Source: Verrucomicrobiia bacterium (GTDB lineage Bacteria; Verrucomicrobiota; Verrucomicrobiia; Limisphaerales; DSYF01). Taken from it: a stretch of 57,854 nucleotides of DNA. Shown piece after piece: positions 9,370 through 29,244 of the stretch. The notes beneath the pieces were generated by a model. It was given only the letters and a program-made list of their open reading frames with translations, ran no database searches and was not told where the DNA came from. Position 1 is the first letter of the stretch. The number at the start of each line of letters is the position of its first letter. Location: assembly GCA_035765895.1 (NCBI GenBank), contig DASTWL010000058.1:1-57854 (forward strand), given 5' to 3'. A program made the position numbers and the translations under genes.

Positions 9370-10644
9370 TCAGCCGTCGCGCGCTGGCCTGACGTCATTC
9401 GGGGCGGGCTGAGAATTGTCTGCCCTTCCTTCCGTCGGCTTTCCTGTTTCCGCCGATTCTTTCGGCAGTTCTCCCTTGGCCATTTGCAGGTGCGGCGCGG
9501 CGCCGTCCAGATCCTCGTGGAGGCGATAGACCCAGGCTTCGCCCCAGAAGAGGTTGCAGCTCGTCTCGGCGCGGAGCAGACGCCAGCGGGCCTGTTCAAG
9601 CGCGTGCGTGAACGCATGGGATTCGAGCTTGAGTTCCTTCGCCCGGGCTTCGGTCGCGTGCAAATTCGCGCTGAAATCGTGGAGGCGTTGCAGCGCGTCT
9701 TTCTGCAGCTGCGAGCCGGTCCACTGGAGAAAATCCACCCCGTGATGCCAGCCGGTATTCCACGCGCCGGTGCGCACGGTCACTTCGCCGTGCGCGCCGT
9801 ATTGGTCAAGGTAATCGTGGATGAACGTGGGTTGCACCTCGGTCTGGCCGGCGCGAACACGGTCGAGCAGCTCGCGGTAGCAGACATGCCAGAAATTTCC
9901 CTTCTCGCTCGTGTTGCGGAACCAGCCGCCGTTGTCGCCGTCGGTGGCGGTGAGGACGAGCGGTGGGAAGTCACAGAACTTCGTGCGCTCGTGCAGCTCG
10001 TGCATGAACCAGCCCGCGTCCATGCCGGAAAGCTGCGCGTCGGAAAGCTCACGGTCGCGCACGACGACAATGATTTCCTCGCCGCCGTAACGCGCGATGT
10101 GGGGACGGTAGCGCAGTTCCTCCCAACGCATCTCGCCGACGGGCTCGACGTGGTGGCTGTCCACCATCACGTAGCGGTAGCCCATGCGCTTGAGCAGCGG
10201 GATGAGCTCCATGCAGAAGCCCATCTCGGACGGCCAGAAGCCGTGGAAATCTTTCCGCCAGAAAACGTGCTCGGCGATGCCCCGCCAGCGTTTGAGCTGT
10301 TCCTCGCGGTCCGCCGCGGGAATCAACGCGAGCACGGGATGATAATAACCCGTGCCGAGGACATCGAAAAGCTGCCGGTTCTGGAGATGCCAGAGCAGGT
10401 CGCCGCATTTGACGATGCCGAAAACGCGTTCCTGAAATGTCGGATCAATCAATGTCTCCAGCAGCGTGCCGGACATGGCGAGGTGGACGCGCGCGACGTC
10501 TTCGTAGCCCCATAACGCGCGCGGCATGCGGTCGAGCGCCCAGAGGATTTCCTTGGCCTCCCACTCGTTGTTGTCGAGCAGCCACTGCAAATTGCCCGGA
10601 GGCTGATGCAGGTTCAGCGTGAGGGCGTGGAAGATTTTGCGCAT
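9370..10644 (-). CDS. Glycoside hydrolase family 57-like enzyme
   Basis: A 424-residue GH57-type protein. The start MRKIFHALTLNLHQPPGNLQ carries the family LHQPP motif. The segment FHGFWPSEMGF holds the likely catalytic Glu, and TATDGDNGGWF holds the likely catalytic Asp with the conserved following GGW. GH57 enzymes are alpha-amylases, branching enzymes or 4-alpha-glucanotransferases, which fits the glycogen neighbourhood. It is the last gene of the minus-strand glucan run. Its 5' end is duplicated by a 38-base direct repeat, and a RAYT gene separates it from the FRG gene, so its original promoter may have been displaced. Exact activity is not predictable. Confidence 0.85.
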   Translation of the reverse strand: MRKIFHALTLNLHQPPGNLQWLLDNNEWEAKEILWALDRMPRALWGYEDVARVHLAMSGTLLETLIDPTFQERVFGIVKCGDLLWHLQNRQLFDVLGTGYYHPVLALIPAADREEQLKRWRGIAEHVFWRKDFHGFWPSEMGFCMELIPLLKRMGYRYVMVDSHHVEPVGEMRWEELRYRPHIARYGGEEIIVVVRDRELSDAQLSGMDAGWFMHELHERTKFCDFPPLVLTATDGDNGGWFRNTSEKGNFWHVCYRELLDRVRAGQTEVQPTFIHDYLDQYGAHGEVTVRTGAWNTGWHHGVDFLQWTGSQLQKDALQRLHDFSANLHATEARAKELKLESHAFTHALEQARWRLLRAETSCNLFWGEAWVYRLHEDLDGAAPHLQMAKGELPKESAETGKPTEGRADNSQPAPNDVRPARDG

Positions 10645-10645
10645 G
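10608..10645. repeat. Left copy of 38-bp direct repeat covering the GH57 gene start
   Basis: These 38 bases, which contain the start codon and first dozen codons of the GH57 gene, recur exactly at 11663-11700. The match ends abruptly on both sides. Confidence 0.95.
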
Positions 10646-10695
10646 ATGAGGTGAAGTTAGAACGCACTGGGGCTGCGGCGGCGTGCAAATCGGCA

Positions 10696-10720
10696 GGAGC
10701 GCCGGTCTGTGACCGGCTTA
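10696..10720 (+). repeat. REP-like hairpin 1 (GGAG foot)
   Basis: Foot GGAGC followed by a perfect 7-bp stem GCCGGTC/GACCGGC around a TGT loop and a CTTA tail. It forms an inverted pair with the element at 10789-10813. Confidence 0.85.
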
Positions 10721-10768
10721 GGGGATTCAAACTGCCTTTGAGCGCACGCATTTGGTCGAAGGCGGGAG

Positions 10769-11626
10769 TCATTTGTTTCGCCACGGTCTAAGCCGACTAC
10801 AAGTCGGCGCTCCATCTCCTTGCGGGGCGCCACTCTTTGAGCGGCTTCGCGCTACCGGGTATTTCAACCGTCCAAGCTCATCGCGAAACCGCGCGCTACT
10901 CCAGGGCCATTCCTTCGCTTCACGCACGAGCCCGGCTTTCGCGGGATTGTTTTCGATGTAACTCACCGCCGTTCGGTGGTGTGCATTATTCTCGATCACA
11001 GTGTCGAGATACTCGCGTTCCCAGAATTCGCCGCGGCGTCCGAGCAGCTTGTTCGCTTCATGAGCGACAAAGGCCTTCCAACTCTTGATCAACTCCGACA
11101 GCGGCGTGTCCCAAACATCCACGAGCGCATGCAGGTGATTCGGCATGATGACCCAAGCGGCCAGTGCGTAACGTTGACCATCAAAATGGCGCAACGCACC
11201 CTCCGCCAGGCTGGCGATGGCGGGCTGGCGTAACCAGCAATCACCAAGGCTGCGATCCAGATACTCCTCCAGTTTTCGCCGCCGCTCGCGAAGATTCTCG
11301 ATTTGCAGCAAATGCTCCCATTCCCGACGACGGCTTGCTGGCAAAGAATCGGCGAGGCGTAAGGTGATGATTTGTGTGATGCCGGGCGCATCGTAATGAG
11401 GCAGATAGCTGCGTTGATGCCAGCCTAAGAATCCTTTTGCTTTGGCATCCTCATCAAGTGGGACTGCCCACGACTGCTTGCCGGTGACTAGCTGTTGCAG
11501 GCCGGGATTGTAAGGGGGTCGTGAAAGCTGCGAACACTTGGGAGCGCCGGCCTGTGACCGGCTTTGGGCGGGAATGCCTTGAGTTTTGTCCCGCTTAGTT
11601 TGCATCGCACGCGGGATGGTGGTCAT
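10769..11626 (-). CDS. REP-associated tyrosine transposase (RAYT, IS200/Y1-like)
   Basis: An HUH single-strand transposase-like protein. The metal-binding HUH motif is MPNHLHALV (His164, His166). The likely nucleophile is Tyr206 in FWEREYLDTV, followed by the family segment AVSYIENNPAKAGL and WPWSSARF. The upstream GWHQRSYLPHYDAPGITQ motif is also typical of RAYTs. The gene is bracketed by two inverted pairs of REP-like hairpins, and two of the four overlap its coding ends, so the N-terminal ~35 and C-terminal ~15 residues are partly repeat-derived. MTTIPRAMQT (11626) or the inner Met at 11605 could start it. RAYTs are usually single-copy domesticated enzymes that mobilise REPs; that role here is inference from context. 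The reading frame is intact. Confidence 0.88.
   Translation of the reverse strand: MTTIPRAMQTKRDKTQGIPAQSRSQAGAPKCSQLSRPPYNPGLQQLVTGKQSWAVPLDEDAKAKGFLGWHQRSYLPHYDAPGITQIITLRLADSLPASRRREWEHLLQIENLRERRRKLEEYLDRSLGDCWLRQPAIASLAEGALRHFDGQRYALAAWVIMPNHLHALVDVWDTPLSELIKSWKAFVAHEANKLLGRRGEFWEREYLDTVIENNAHHRTAVSYIENNPAKAGLVREAKEWPWSSARFRDELGRLKYPVARSRSKSGAPQGDGAPTCSRLRPWRNK
10789..10813 (-). repeat. REP-like hairpin 2, inverted
   Basis: Read on the minus strand it has the same GGAGC foot, with a 7-bp stem GCCGACT/AGTCGGC and the TAAG tail complement. It lies inside the 3' end of the RAYT coding region, encoding the GAPTCSRL residues. Confidence 0.85.
11541..11565 (+). repeat. REP-like hairpin 3
   Basis: GGAGC foot with stem GCCGGCC/GACCGGC (one mismatch) around TGT. 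It lies within the 5' coding part of the RAYT gene, encoding part of residues 20-30. Confidence 0.85.
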
Positions 11627-11632
11627 GAGGTT

Positions 11633-11657
11633 TAAGCCGACAACATGTCGGCGCTCC
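11633..11657 (-). repeat. REP-like hairpin 4, inverted
   Basis: Minus-strand copy of the same family, with stem GCCGACA/TGTCGGC around ACA. It is just upstream of the RAYT start and five bases from the right 38-bp repeat, and pairs with hairpin 3. Confidence 0.85.
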
Positions 11658-11662
11658 TGCGC

Positions 11663-11700
11663 GCAGGTTCAGCGTGAGGGCGTGGAAGATTTTGCGCATG
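11663..11700. repeat. Right copy of 38-bp direct repeat
   Basis: Exact duplicate of 10608-10645, lying immediately beyond the last REP hairpin (11633-11657). The two copies bracket the RAYT gene and four REPs, so the whole unit looks like an insertion that duplicated the start of the GH57 gene. Confidence 0.95.
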
Positions 11701-11731: not shown

Positions 11732-12922
11732 TCATGGGAAAAATTGTTCCTTCAACGACCGGCACACTCCGTCAAGACCGGGGAAGAGCGATGCAGCGGT
11801 GACGCCCATGTAGGCAAGGTCTCGCATTGCAAACTCTCGCTCCAATCTTGGTATGTCGATGATTGTTAAATACTGCCTCTTGTTAATTCGTTCCCTAAAT
11901 CTAATCCATCCCTCAATGTCTTCGACGTTACTGAAGGCATGCACAGACTGCTGTGGCAGGTGTCTGGGGTTGTTGTGAGCCGGAAACTCTTCAACTGTGA
12001 TTACGGGTCGCGGGTCGGCGAAATGTAACGCTTGAGCCGTATCGTTCTTCCAAGCCGTTGCGTCCAAAACATAGATGCGATGATTGTCGCTTGCTGGTTC
12101 GGTTTTAAGGCGGCTCGACAGGGCAAAATATGCGGCCACATACGGCGACCATGACCAATCAAGGAGCGGAGTCGGGAACCCGTGGTGCTGCGCTAAACTG
12201 AGAAGCGCACCGAAGTCTGCCGGGTTGCTTCGGTTGTATTGGCGAAAGCTAGTTGCATTTATGTGCTGCTCCAATCGTTTACAATCCTCCTCATTGTATC
12301 GCAGTAAATCATACCGATTCTCGCGGTGAAACGAGGTCTTAAGCCGGTGATTGCTTGAAGCTTGGCCTCGGAAAATATATTTACCGCGCCCTTTGATTAA
12401 CTCTGCGGCGAACCGCTTAAACTCTTCCCATGATTGAATCTTGTCGGGTTGGCTAGGTTCGCTTTGCTTCAGTCGTGTCGCATTGAACGTGCCCGGTATC
12501 GACTGACCTCTATATTTCCCATGCCAGCTACAAGTCAGGGTTGTGGCGTCAATAAACCCTTCGTCGATTGTGATTTCTTCGAAATAAAAAACCTTGCCTT
12601 CCTGTCTGCGCACAGACTCCTCCACGGAGATGGTTTCGTTTTTCCTCCAATCGAAAACTATGGTGGAAGCTGACTGCCCTGTGATTCGATTGCCTGCTCC
12701 GATTTGCAGAGTGAAATCTTTCCGGCTCCCGTGGATTTGCTGCCCTTGATCAATACAGGCAAATCCGCTCTGGGGCCGATCTCGCTCGATATTGAACGTC
12801 GCAAAGCCGGGAAATGCAAACGATCCGTCTTGTGACGATTTACCCTCAAACTTTCCAATCCATTGACCAAAGATGGTTTCTGGTGCCTTGCCTTGATTGA
12901 GGTTGTTGGTGGACGCTTGCAT
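11732..12922 (-). CDS. FRG-domain protein with N-terminal beta-rich domain
   Basis: A 396-residue protein. Residues ~15-150 are rich in short beta-like strands (TIFGQWIGKFEGKSS, FATFNIERD), with no recognised family. A linker follows, and from about residue 165 an FRG domain contains its namesake YIFRGQASSN and a downstream LLDWSWSPYVAAYFAL segment. The FRG domain is widespread but its biochemical role is unsettled; it turns up in accessory and defence-type gene neighbourhoods. No signal peptide is seen. The base composition is visibly more AT-rich than the flanking glg genes, and the gene interrupts the glgB-GH57 order, so lateral acquisition is likely. Function unknown. Confidence 0.82.
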   Translation of the reverse strand: MQASTNNLNQGKAPETIFGQWIGKFEGKSSQDGSFAFPGFATFNIERDRPQSGFACIDQGQQIHGSRKDFTLQIGAGNRITGQSASTIVFDWRKNETISVEESVRRQEGKVFYFEEITIDEGFIDATTLTCSWHGKYRGQSIPGTFNATRLKQSEPSQPDKIQSWEEFKRFAAELIKGRGKYIFRGQASSNHRLKTSFHRENRYDLLRYNEEDCKRLEQHINATSFRQYNRSNPADFGALLSLAQHHGFPTPLLDWSWSPYVAAYFALSSRLKTEPASDNHRIYVLDATAWKNDTAQALHFADPRPVITVEEFPAHNNPRHLPQQSVHAFSNVEDIEGWIRFRERINKRQYLTIIDIPRLEREFAMRDLAYMGVTAASLFPGLDGVCRSLKEQFFP

Positions 12923-12965
12923 CTAGATTCACACCTTCGCCAGACTTCTTCTCCAGCAACGCCAA

Positions 12966-15212
<2,247 letters not shown>

Positions 15213-27287: not shown

Positions 27288-28265
27288 CTACGCCTGCCGA
27301 AACTCCTGCACGCTGCGCACGAAATCATCCGGGACACCGAAGTCAAAGCGCTGGGCGCTGGTCATTTCGAGGGCGAGATAGCCTTCGCGCTGGCGCTGGA
27401 TTTCCTGGGCGCGCGTCAGTTGGAATTCGCCGTTGTCGCGCACGTTGTCGCGGATCATTTCGGCGAGGATGTCGTAGATGCTGGGCGCGAGCAGGTGCAT
27501 GCCGAACCAGCCCAGCCACGTCCCGGCGGGCAAACCATCCACGTGCAACTGCTGCTTCGCCACGGCCACGGCGGGCTTCTCGATGATGAGCGAAATGTCA
27601 ATCAATCGCGGATTCTCAGCGCGCCGTCTGCCGGCGATGGTGCCGTAGCCTTTCAACTCTTCCGTCGAAATGCGGTTCACCGCCGACACCGAACGGCCGC
27701 CGCTGACGCCGGCCATTTGCGCCAGTTCGACGAAGGGTGAAACGATGCTTGTTTCAGGGAGCGGAGCGCGGCCGTCCTCGGCCGCAGCGGTTTGATTGCA
27801 GTTGGACGTGCTGCGGCTGGGGACAGCCGCGGTCCGTTTCGCACGGAACAGGTGATCGCCGAGGCAAAGGAGGACAGGTTCGCCGTTCGCAAAAGCTTTG
27901 CTTTGGAACACGGCATGACCGTAGCCGTCCTGCGTGGTTTGCACCGCGAACGAGACACGCTGGGCAAAGCCGCGCATCTGCTCGGCTTCGCGCAGGAGCG
28001 CCGGATATTTGGCGAGGCGCTTGAGGTAATCGTCGCCGGGGCCGTTCAAGTAGGCGCGGATCATCTCGTCCTCGCCGGGCTGGACGATGATGCAGAGCTC
28101 GCGGATGCCGGCGGCTTCGAGTTCCAGCAGGTGGTAATGGAACAGCGCGCGCGCGATGCCGTCGGGGCCGACGACGGGGAACAGTTCCTTCTTCACCGCG
28201 TGCGACGCGGGAAAGTGGCGTGTGCCGAGTCCGGCCACGGGGATGACGGCTTTGCGGATGATCAT
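27288..28265 (-). CDS. galU: UTP-glucose-1-phosphate uridylyltransferase (GalU-like) with repeat-derived insert
   Basis: Makes UDP-glucose from glucose-1-phosphate and UTP. The N-terminal nucleotide-binding motif MIIRKAVIPVAGLGTRHFPASH is the bacterial GalU signature, followed by KKELFPVVG, IIVQPGEDEM and LLCLGDHLF. Immediately after this strand about 30 residues (KRTAAVPSRSTSNCNQTAAAEDG...) have no counterpart in usual GalU and are encoded by two inverted REP-like hairpins. The rest (EELKGYGTIAG, LIIEKP, GWFGMHLLAPSIYDIL) is normal. The start at 28265 is at the conserved motif. Whether the insert impairs activity cannot be told; its place matches a surface loop. Total 325 residues. Confidence 0.9.
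   Translation of the reverse strand: MIIRKAVIPVAGLGTRHFPASHAVKKELFPVVGPDGIARALFHYHLLELEAAGIRELCIIVQPGEDEMIRAYLNGPGDDYLKRLAKYPALLREAEQMRGFAQRVSFAVQTTQDGYGHAVFQSKAFANGEPVLLCLGDHLFRAKRTAAVPSRSTSNCNQTAAAEDGRAPLPETSIVSPFVELAQMAGVSGGRSVSAVNRISTEELKGYGTIAGRRRAENPRLIDISLIIEKPAVAVAKQQLHVDGLPAGTWLGWFGMHLLAPSIYDILAEMIRDNVRDNGEFQLTRAQEIQRQREGYLALEMTSAQRFDFGVPDDFVRSVQEFRQA
27763..27835. repeat. Inverted pair of REP-like hairpins inside galU
   Basis: Element one (27763-27788) has a GGAGC foot and stem GCGGCCG/CGGCCGC. Element two (27810-27835, opposite strand) has a GGACC foot and stem GCGGCT/AGCCGC. Read in the same direction the two are near-identical in layout, so they form a pair like those beside the RAYT gene, with similar foot and hairpin length but a different stem. 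Confidence 0.8.
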
Positions 28266-29191: not shown

Positions 29192-29244
29192 AGGAGGAGC
29201 GCGGAGCCGATACCGGTCACGGGGATGACGGCTCTGCGGATGGT
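29192..29244 (-). pseudogene. Partial copy of a galU 5' end (third copy)
   Basis: The minus strand reads VTIRRAVIPVTGIGSALLLA, a degenerate version of the GalU start (RKAVIPVAGLGTR). On the plus strand the shared core is CACGGGGATGACGGCT. It lies just upstream of the antitoxin, so the toxin-antitoxin pair sits between the second and third galU-start remnants. Confidence 0.6.

Follow-up and report, generated by a model that had tools for sequence, protein, structure and literature searches.

How did a transposase gene and its cognate repeats come to lie between two identical copies of the start of a neighboring gene? The question arises in a 57,854-nt stretch of DNA from a Verrucomicrobiia bacterium (GCA_035765895.1, contig DASTWL010000058.1, positions 1-57,854, forward strand), hereafter the window, whose source genome is a 4.64-Mb draft of 96 contigs. 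The minus-strand order of the genes is glgB, an FRG-domain gene, a gene for a REP-associated tyrosine transposase (RAYT), and a gene of the GH57 family. The initial annotation placed the RAYT unit precisely between exact 38-bp copies of the GH57 gene start and, as HUH/Y1 transposases normally make no target duplication, called for another explanation, such as replication slippage, template switching, or a different insertion route. The features of the locus are:

9370-10644, minus strand: GH57-family gene (Pfam PF03065, E 8e-18); its first codons are the duplicated sequence
10608-10645: left copy of the 38-bp direct repeat, covering roughly the first 12 codons of GH57 and 1 bp more
10646-10695: spacer of 50 bp between the left copy and the first REP
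10696-10813: REPIN downstream of RAYT, 118 bp, with REPs at 10696-10719 and 10790-10813
10769-11626, minus strand: RAYT, 285 aa, HUH and Tyr motifs intact
11541-11657: REPIN upstream of RAYT, 117 bp, with REPs at 11541-11564 and 11634-11657; oriented like the downstream REPIN
11663-11700: right copy of the 38-bp direct repeat, read as a displaced GH57 5' end
between the GH57-start copy and the FRG gene: flank GGTTATCGGC, adjoining the right 38-bp copy
11732-12922, minus strand: FRG-domain gene (Pfam PF08867, E 6e-22), between the right 38-bp copy and glgB
12940-12952: box CCAGACTTCTTCT, a near-match to a box lying upstream of GH57 in the relatives G002 and G003
12966-15212, minus strand: glgB, which directly adjoins GH57 in G002

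The transposase frame had been described as complete with HUH and Tyr motifs, and the protein comparisons bear this out. Its product is recognized by two family models, Pfam Y1_Tnp (E 3.7e-6) and NCBIfam REP_Tyr_transpos (80.6 bits against a cut-off of 80), and a profile of the family matches TnpArep of PDB 4er8 (E 6e-12). Across nine aligned homologues, no variation occurs in the HUH motif, PNHLH (H164 and H166), or in the tyrosine, Y223; the Y1 domain thus carries both the motif and the catalytic tyrosine that define RAYT/TnpAREP (REPtron) proteins. The four GGAG-footed REP hairpins reported around the gene were also found, in the inverted flanking arrangement typical of this family, with one correction: they form two REPINs, each an inverted REP pair, which share one orientation and are therefore direct repeats of each other, and the RAYT ORF runs into both. 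The start and stop codons of RAYT fall inside the two REPINs, between the REPs of each, so that REP sequence is translated at both ends of the protein; the same holds for the closest relative, L095 (2917-3718). When the whole inverted pairs were folded as DNA, the left one beat 200 of 200 shuffles (z -4.1), while the right one was weaker (z -2.1). The genome search for REPs of the same pattern that had been proposed returned 47 matches, compared with 3 for a reversed control pattern. The cognate REPs are dispersed, as expected of a RAYT system, and lie mostly in inverted pairs, giving about 20 REPINs (pair units) in the genome. The GGAG foot departs from the canonical GTAG/GTGG, which is typical but not universal, some subclasses having other feet or atypical hairpins (PMC6006769); membership thus rests on the protein family and the remaining features. 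The same genome encodes a second RAYT (G000:C72:40773-41489; L049, L091), which is 44% identical to that of the window and is flanked by a different REP family, GGAGCGCGGCTGTCCCCAGCCGC.

The repeat, GCAGGTTCAGCGTGAGGGCGTGGAAGATTTTGCGCATG, is exact: its two copies are identical, where the chance expectation for a direct repeat of this length is zero. A common interspersed family, which would have refuted the original observation, was rejected, because a search of the 4.6-Mb genome that tolerated three mismatches returned the 38-mer at these two places only. The unit does not, however, fit "precisely" between the copies. Fifty base pairs intervene on the left and 5 bp, from the last REP to the right copy, on the other side, and the 50-bp spacer has no match elsewhere in the genome or in the relatives' GH57 upstream DNA. 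The window also holds another local direct repeat, of 37 bp and 89% identity, at 28224-28260 and 29206-29242, about 1 kb apart.

A comparison with close relatives, suggested at the outset as a search for the empty site, pointed to the ancestral state. The GH57 homologues of G001 and of G002 and G003 are 85% and 71% identical, respectively, to that of the window. In G002 a single GH57 start lies next to glgB, across a spacer of about 145 bp (from the alignment), with neither a RAYT nor an FRG gene, and this relative, too, leaves the original observation unrefuted; G001 has mutS (read from its ORF) upstream of GH57 instead of glgB. A box, CCAGACTTTTTC, found upstream of GH57 in G002 and G003, is kept with one change beside glgB at 12940-12952 of the window. 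Thus, the FRG gene and the RAYT unit are both additions to one ancestral spacer. The FRG gene, a second insertion in this once-short glgB-GH57 spacer, is probably foreign: its G+C content is 50% against 62% for the window, no homologue was found in the family's other genomes, and homologues are rare in the order. When we looked for the ancestral flank of the 38-mer by comparing the spacer with those of G001, G002, and G003, no signal emerged except the 12940 box.

To ask whether the REP/RAYT machinery duplicates its targets, we examined the approximately 19 other REPIN units of the genome. Within 90 bp of their edges, no direct repeat exceeds 8 nt, showing that the machinery does not normally make one, as had been expected from RAYT chemistry. 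This agrees with the known behavior of the IS200/IS605 family (PMC2817692).

RAYT loci were then gathered from relatives and from the order. Removal of identical cores left 219, a set that still counts some loci twice, and dropping the records present in both collections left about 200; in 170, each flank measures 600 bp or more. The comparison genomes are drafts, one per species. Repeats were searched with hairpins masked, and a wider scan compared bracketing with non-bracketing repeats. Most bracketing repeats are the REPIN spacers themselves, and these, like paralogous genes, were left out of the count (L025, L103, L206, and others). Host gene ends equivalent to that of the window bracket the RAYT in about six more of the approximately 200 loci, involving thrS in four, a WYL-type gene, and a hypothetical gene:

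L098: thrS 3' tail, about 120 bp, 82% identity
L263: thrS 3' tail, 120 bp, 82%
L240: thrS 3' tail, 75%
L270: two further thrS 3' tails
L185: 3' tail of a WYL-type gene (read from its ORF), about 290 bp, 96%
L097/L215: 5' part of a hypothetical gene, about 266 bp

These loci share one topology, in which a gene body with its end is followed by the unit and then by a second copy of that end. Here, as in the window, the acquired DNA is followed by an anchor-gene end that has been displaced, a feature of the footprint of homology-facilitated illegitimate recombination. At L250, the RAYT is bracketed by a repeat of about 30 nt from the 3' end of a tRNA-Glu gene.

In 7 loci, a RAYT has thrS no more than about 3 kb away, against an expectation of 0.1 to 0.3; this figure takes each genome to have about 4500 genes and was calculated once the pattern had been noticed. 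We searched 196 genomes for the thrS C-terminus and then fetched the regions. In many families of the order, an intact thrS is followed by one to three displaced in-frame 3' tails, with 1 to 5 kb of unrelated genes between them (L337, L338, L339, L340, L341, L342, L344, L346, L347, L349, and L351). Most inter-tail gaps have no RAYT match, and tails bracket unrelated genes without any RAYT in G187, G084, G028, G148, G083, and others. The cargo includes acetyltransferase-like, AAA-type ATPase-like, and very long surface-protein-like ORFs, labels that were read from the ORFs with no family-library test; a reading of the listed ORFs of the arrays, likewise with no family-library scan, revealed no apparent integrase. 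A distant RAYT-like match (E 2.8e-10) lies inside the thrS locus of L196, where short thrS fragments follow the intact 3' end. Because the breakpoints of L098, L263, and L240 nearly coincide, about 120 bp from the stop codon, we considered a site-specific att site in thrS, but the breakpoints of other arrays span codons 458 to 648, and it was rejected as a general rule.

The displaced thrS ends bear signs of horizontal origin. Several are closer to the thrS of another family than to their own: 87% versus 73% at L344, 85% versus 82% at L263, and 91% versus 89% at both L340 and one tail of L337. At L263, the differences between the copies by codon position number 6, 3, and 13; since most are in the third position, the copies diverged as genes before being brought together. 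In these cross-family cases, the sequence comparisons indicate that the two ends derive from separate genomes and were joined via DNA acquisition anchored in thrS. Other tails are closest to their own thrS (97% at L338, 95% at L341), and local duplication may also occur there. Between the identical window copies there are no differences on which to run the codon and phylogenetic comparisons that support different origins at L263, L337, L340, and L344. The RAYT and REPINs of the window belong to an already known kind, and the displacement of thrS gene ends is the more interesting by-product of their study. We suggest, with considerable doubt, that cargo has been added recurrently, perhaps with the assistance of dedicated machinery, at conserved gene ends of this bacterial order, Limisphaerales-like Verrucomicrobiota to judge by the named relatives of the RAYT, above all at the 3' end of thrS, leaving arrays of displaced ends and spreading RAYT/REPIN units between genomes.

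For the window itself, our preferred reading, held tentatively and at somewhat less than even confidence, is that additive recombination, anchored by homology, brought in the RAYT unit and left behind a displaced GH57 end. The incoming DNA would have consisted of a GH57 5' region, a 50-bp leader, and the REPIN-RAYT-REPIN unit. One of its ends would have recombined homologously within GH57, while the other was joined illegitimately inside the recipient's GH57 start. This would have added the unit together with the 50-bp leader native to it and displaced the first 38 bp of the recipient's gene to a position between the unit and the older FRG insertion. The 50-bp spacer would then be the leader of the donor, the FRG gene the earlier upstream neighbor of the recipient, and the RAYT a passenger, not the maker of the duplication. 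We infer such a displacement as the source of the 38-bp repeat from several lines of evidence. The spacer is one-sided, which is what a donor's own leader would give, and the FRG gene beyond the displaced end resembles the thrS arrays, in which further cargo lies beyond further displaced ends. Homology-facilitated illegitimate recombination has been invoked to explain T6SS and Rhs displacement (PMC5361080) and is reported to have been demonstrated in experiments with transformable bacteria and with E. coli conjugation (PMC3240628). Against capture, the window fragment is a short 5' head, whereas most comparison cases are longer 3' tails, and no mosaic pattern is visible in GH57 relative to G001. 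G001 differs from the 38-bp copies at 4 of 39 positions; because the copies are identical over 38 bp, either the donor was closer than G001 or the duplication was local. Thus, the slippage, template switching, or other insertion route first proposed may yet account for the window, but the wider sample favors gene-end displacement during additive, homology-anchored acquisition.

Given the identical copies, local templated duplication is a serious rival for the window, and we regard it as possible, if on balance doubtful. In this scenario, the insertion of the unit upstream of GH57 would have duplicated nothing; its right edge would later have suffered a break or a fork stall, perhaps when the FRG gene arrived, and the repair would have copied in the 38-bp GH57 start from nearby. 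The copies lie only 1 kb apart, the FRG gene begins right beside the right copy, and the thrS tails closest to their own gene fit such a process. The junctions, however, as read from the sequence, show no clear microhomology, and local duplication leaves unexplained both the recurrence of gene ends around RAYT units and the tails closer to another family's thrS.

Target duplication is unlikely. Here a linear REPIN-RAYT-REPIN fragment, flanked by 50 and 5 bp from its donor, would have entered a staggered break, possibly one made by RAYT nicks on both strands, and the 38-bp overhang would have been filled in. Such an event would suit the identity of the window copies and the X-T-E-T-Y topology of several RAYT loci, including L098 and L185, where the copies abut the unit. 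A target-site duplication, though, has a constant short length at every copy, and these repeats vary in length between 38 and about 290 bp. They are also seen where there is no RAYT, the diverged copies of L263 keep codon structure, and the approximately 19 REPINs lack any flanking repeat, although REPINs are thought to be mobilized by the same machinery as the RAYT unit. A classical RAYT-made target-site duplication was therefore rejected as the principal explanation.

Single-crossover integration of a circle carrying the unit and the GH57 start would result in the same two direct copies, and the serial thrS tails also fit repeated additions of this kind, but it is improbable: it requires the unit and the GH57 start to have been together beforehand, and 38 bp is a short homology for RecA-dependent exchange. 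Least probable is a false join in the metagenome-assembled contig, for although the genome is a 96-contig draft, the repeat belongs to no interspersed family and has unique flanks, and other genomes, assembled independently, contain structures comparable to it.

RAYT/REPIN units are usually regarded as immobile. There is no evidence that RAYT genes move themselves (PMC8266576). The displaced ends beside them record physically how some, at least, were acquired, and make RAYT acquisition testable by strain comparison; the thrS arrays hint at a route by which genes are acquired more generally in this little-studied group of bacteria. Like the described TnpAREP systems (Nunvar 2010, PMC2817692; Bertels and Rainey 2011, PMC3116915), the window has a Y1 HUH gene between inverted REPs, with cognate REPs dispersed through the genome as inverted pairs. 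It differs from them in its GGAG foot, in place of GT[AG]G, in having a whole REPIN on each side with the ORF running into both, and in the host-gene repeat around the unit, which is not part of the described family. With IS200/IS605 elements it shares the HUH fold, the single catalytic tyrosine, and, judging from the other REPINs of the genome, the lack of target duplication; unlike them, it has no adjoining TnpB gene, is single-copy, and carries REPINs in place of subterminal hairpins. The closest parallel to the displaced ends is the gene-end displacement of T6SS and Rhs loci (PMC5361080), where new cargo also arrives beside a conserved gene and the old end is displaced beyond it, forming arrays. 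In the bacteria studied here, the anchors are instead housekeeping genes (thrS and GH57), RAYT units are among the cargoes, and the part displaced in the window is a 5' head rather than a 3' tail.
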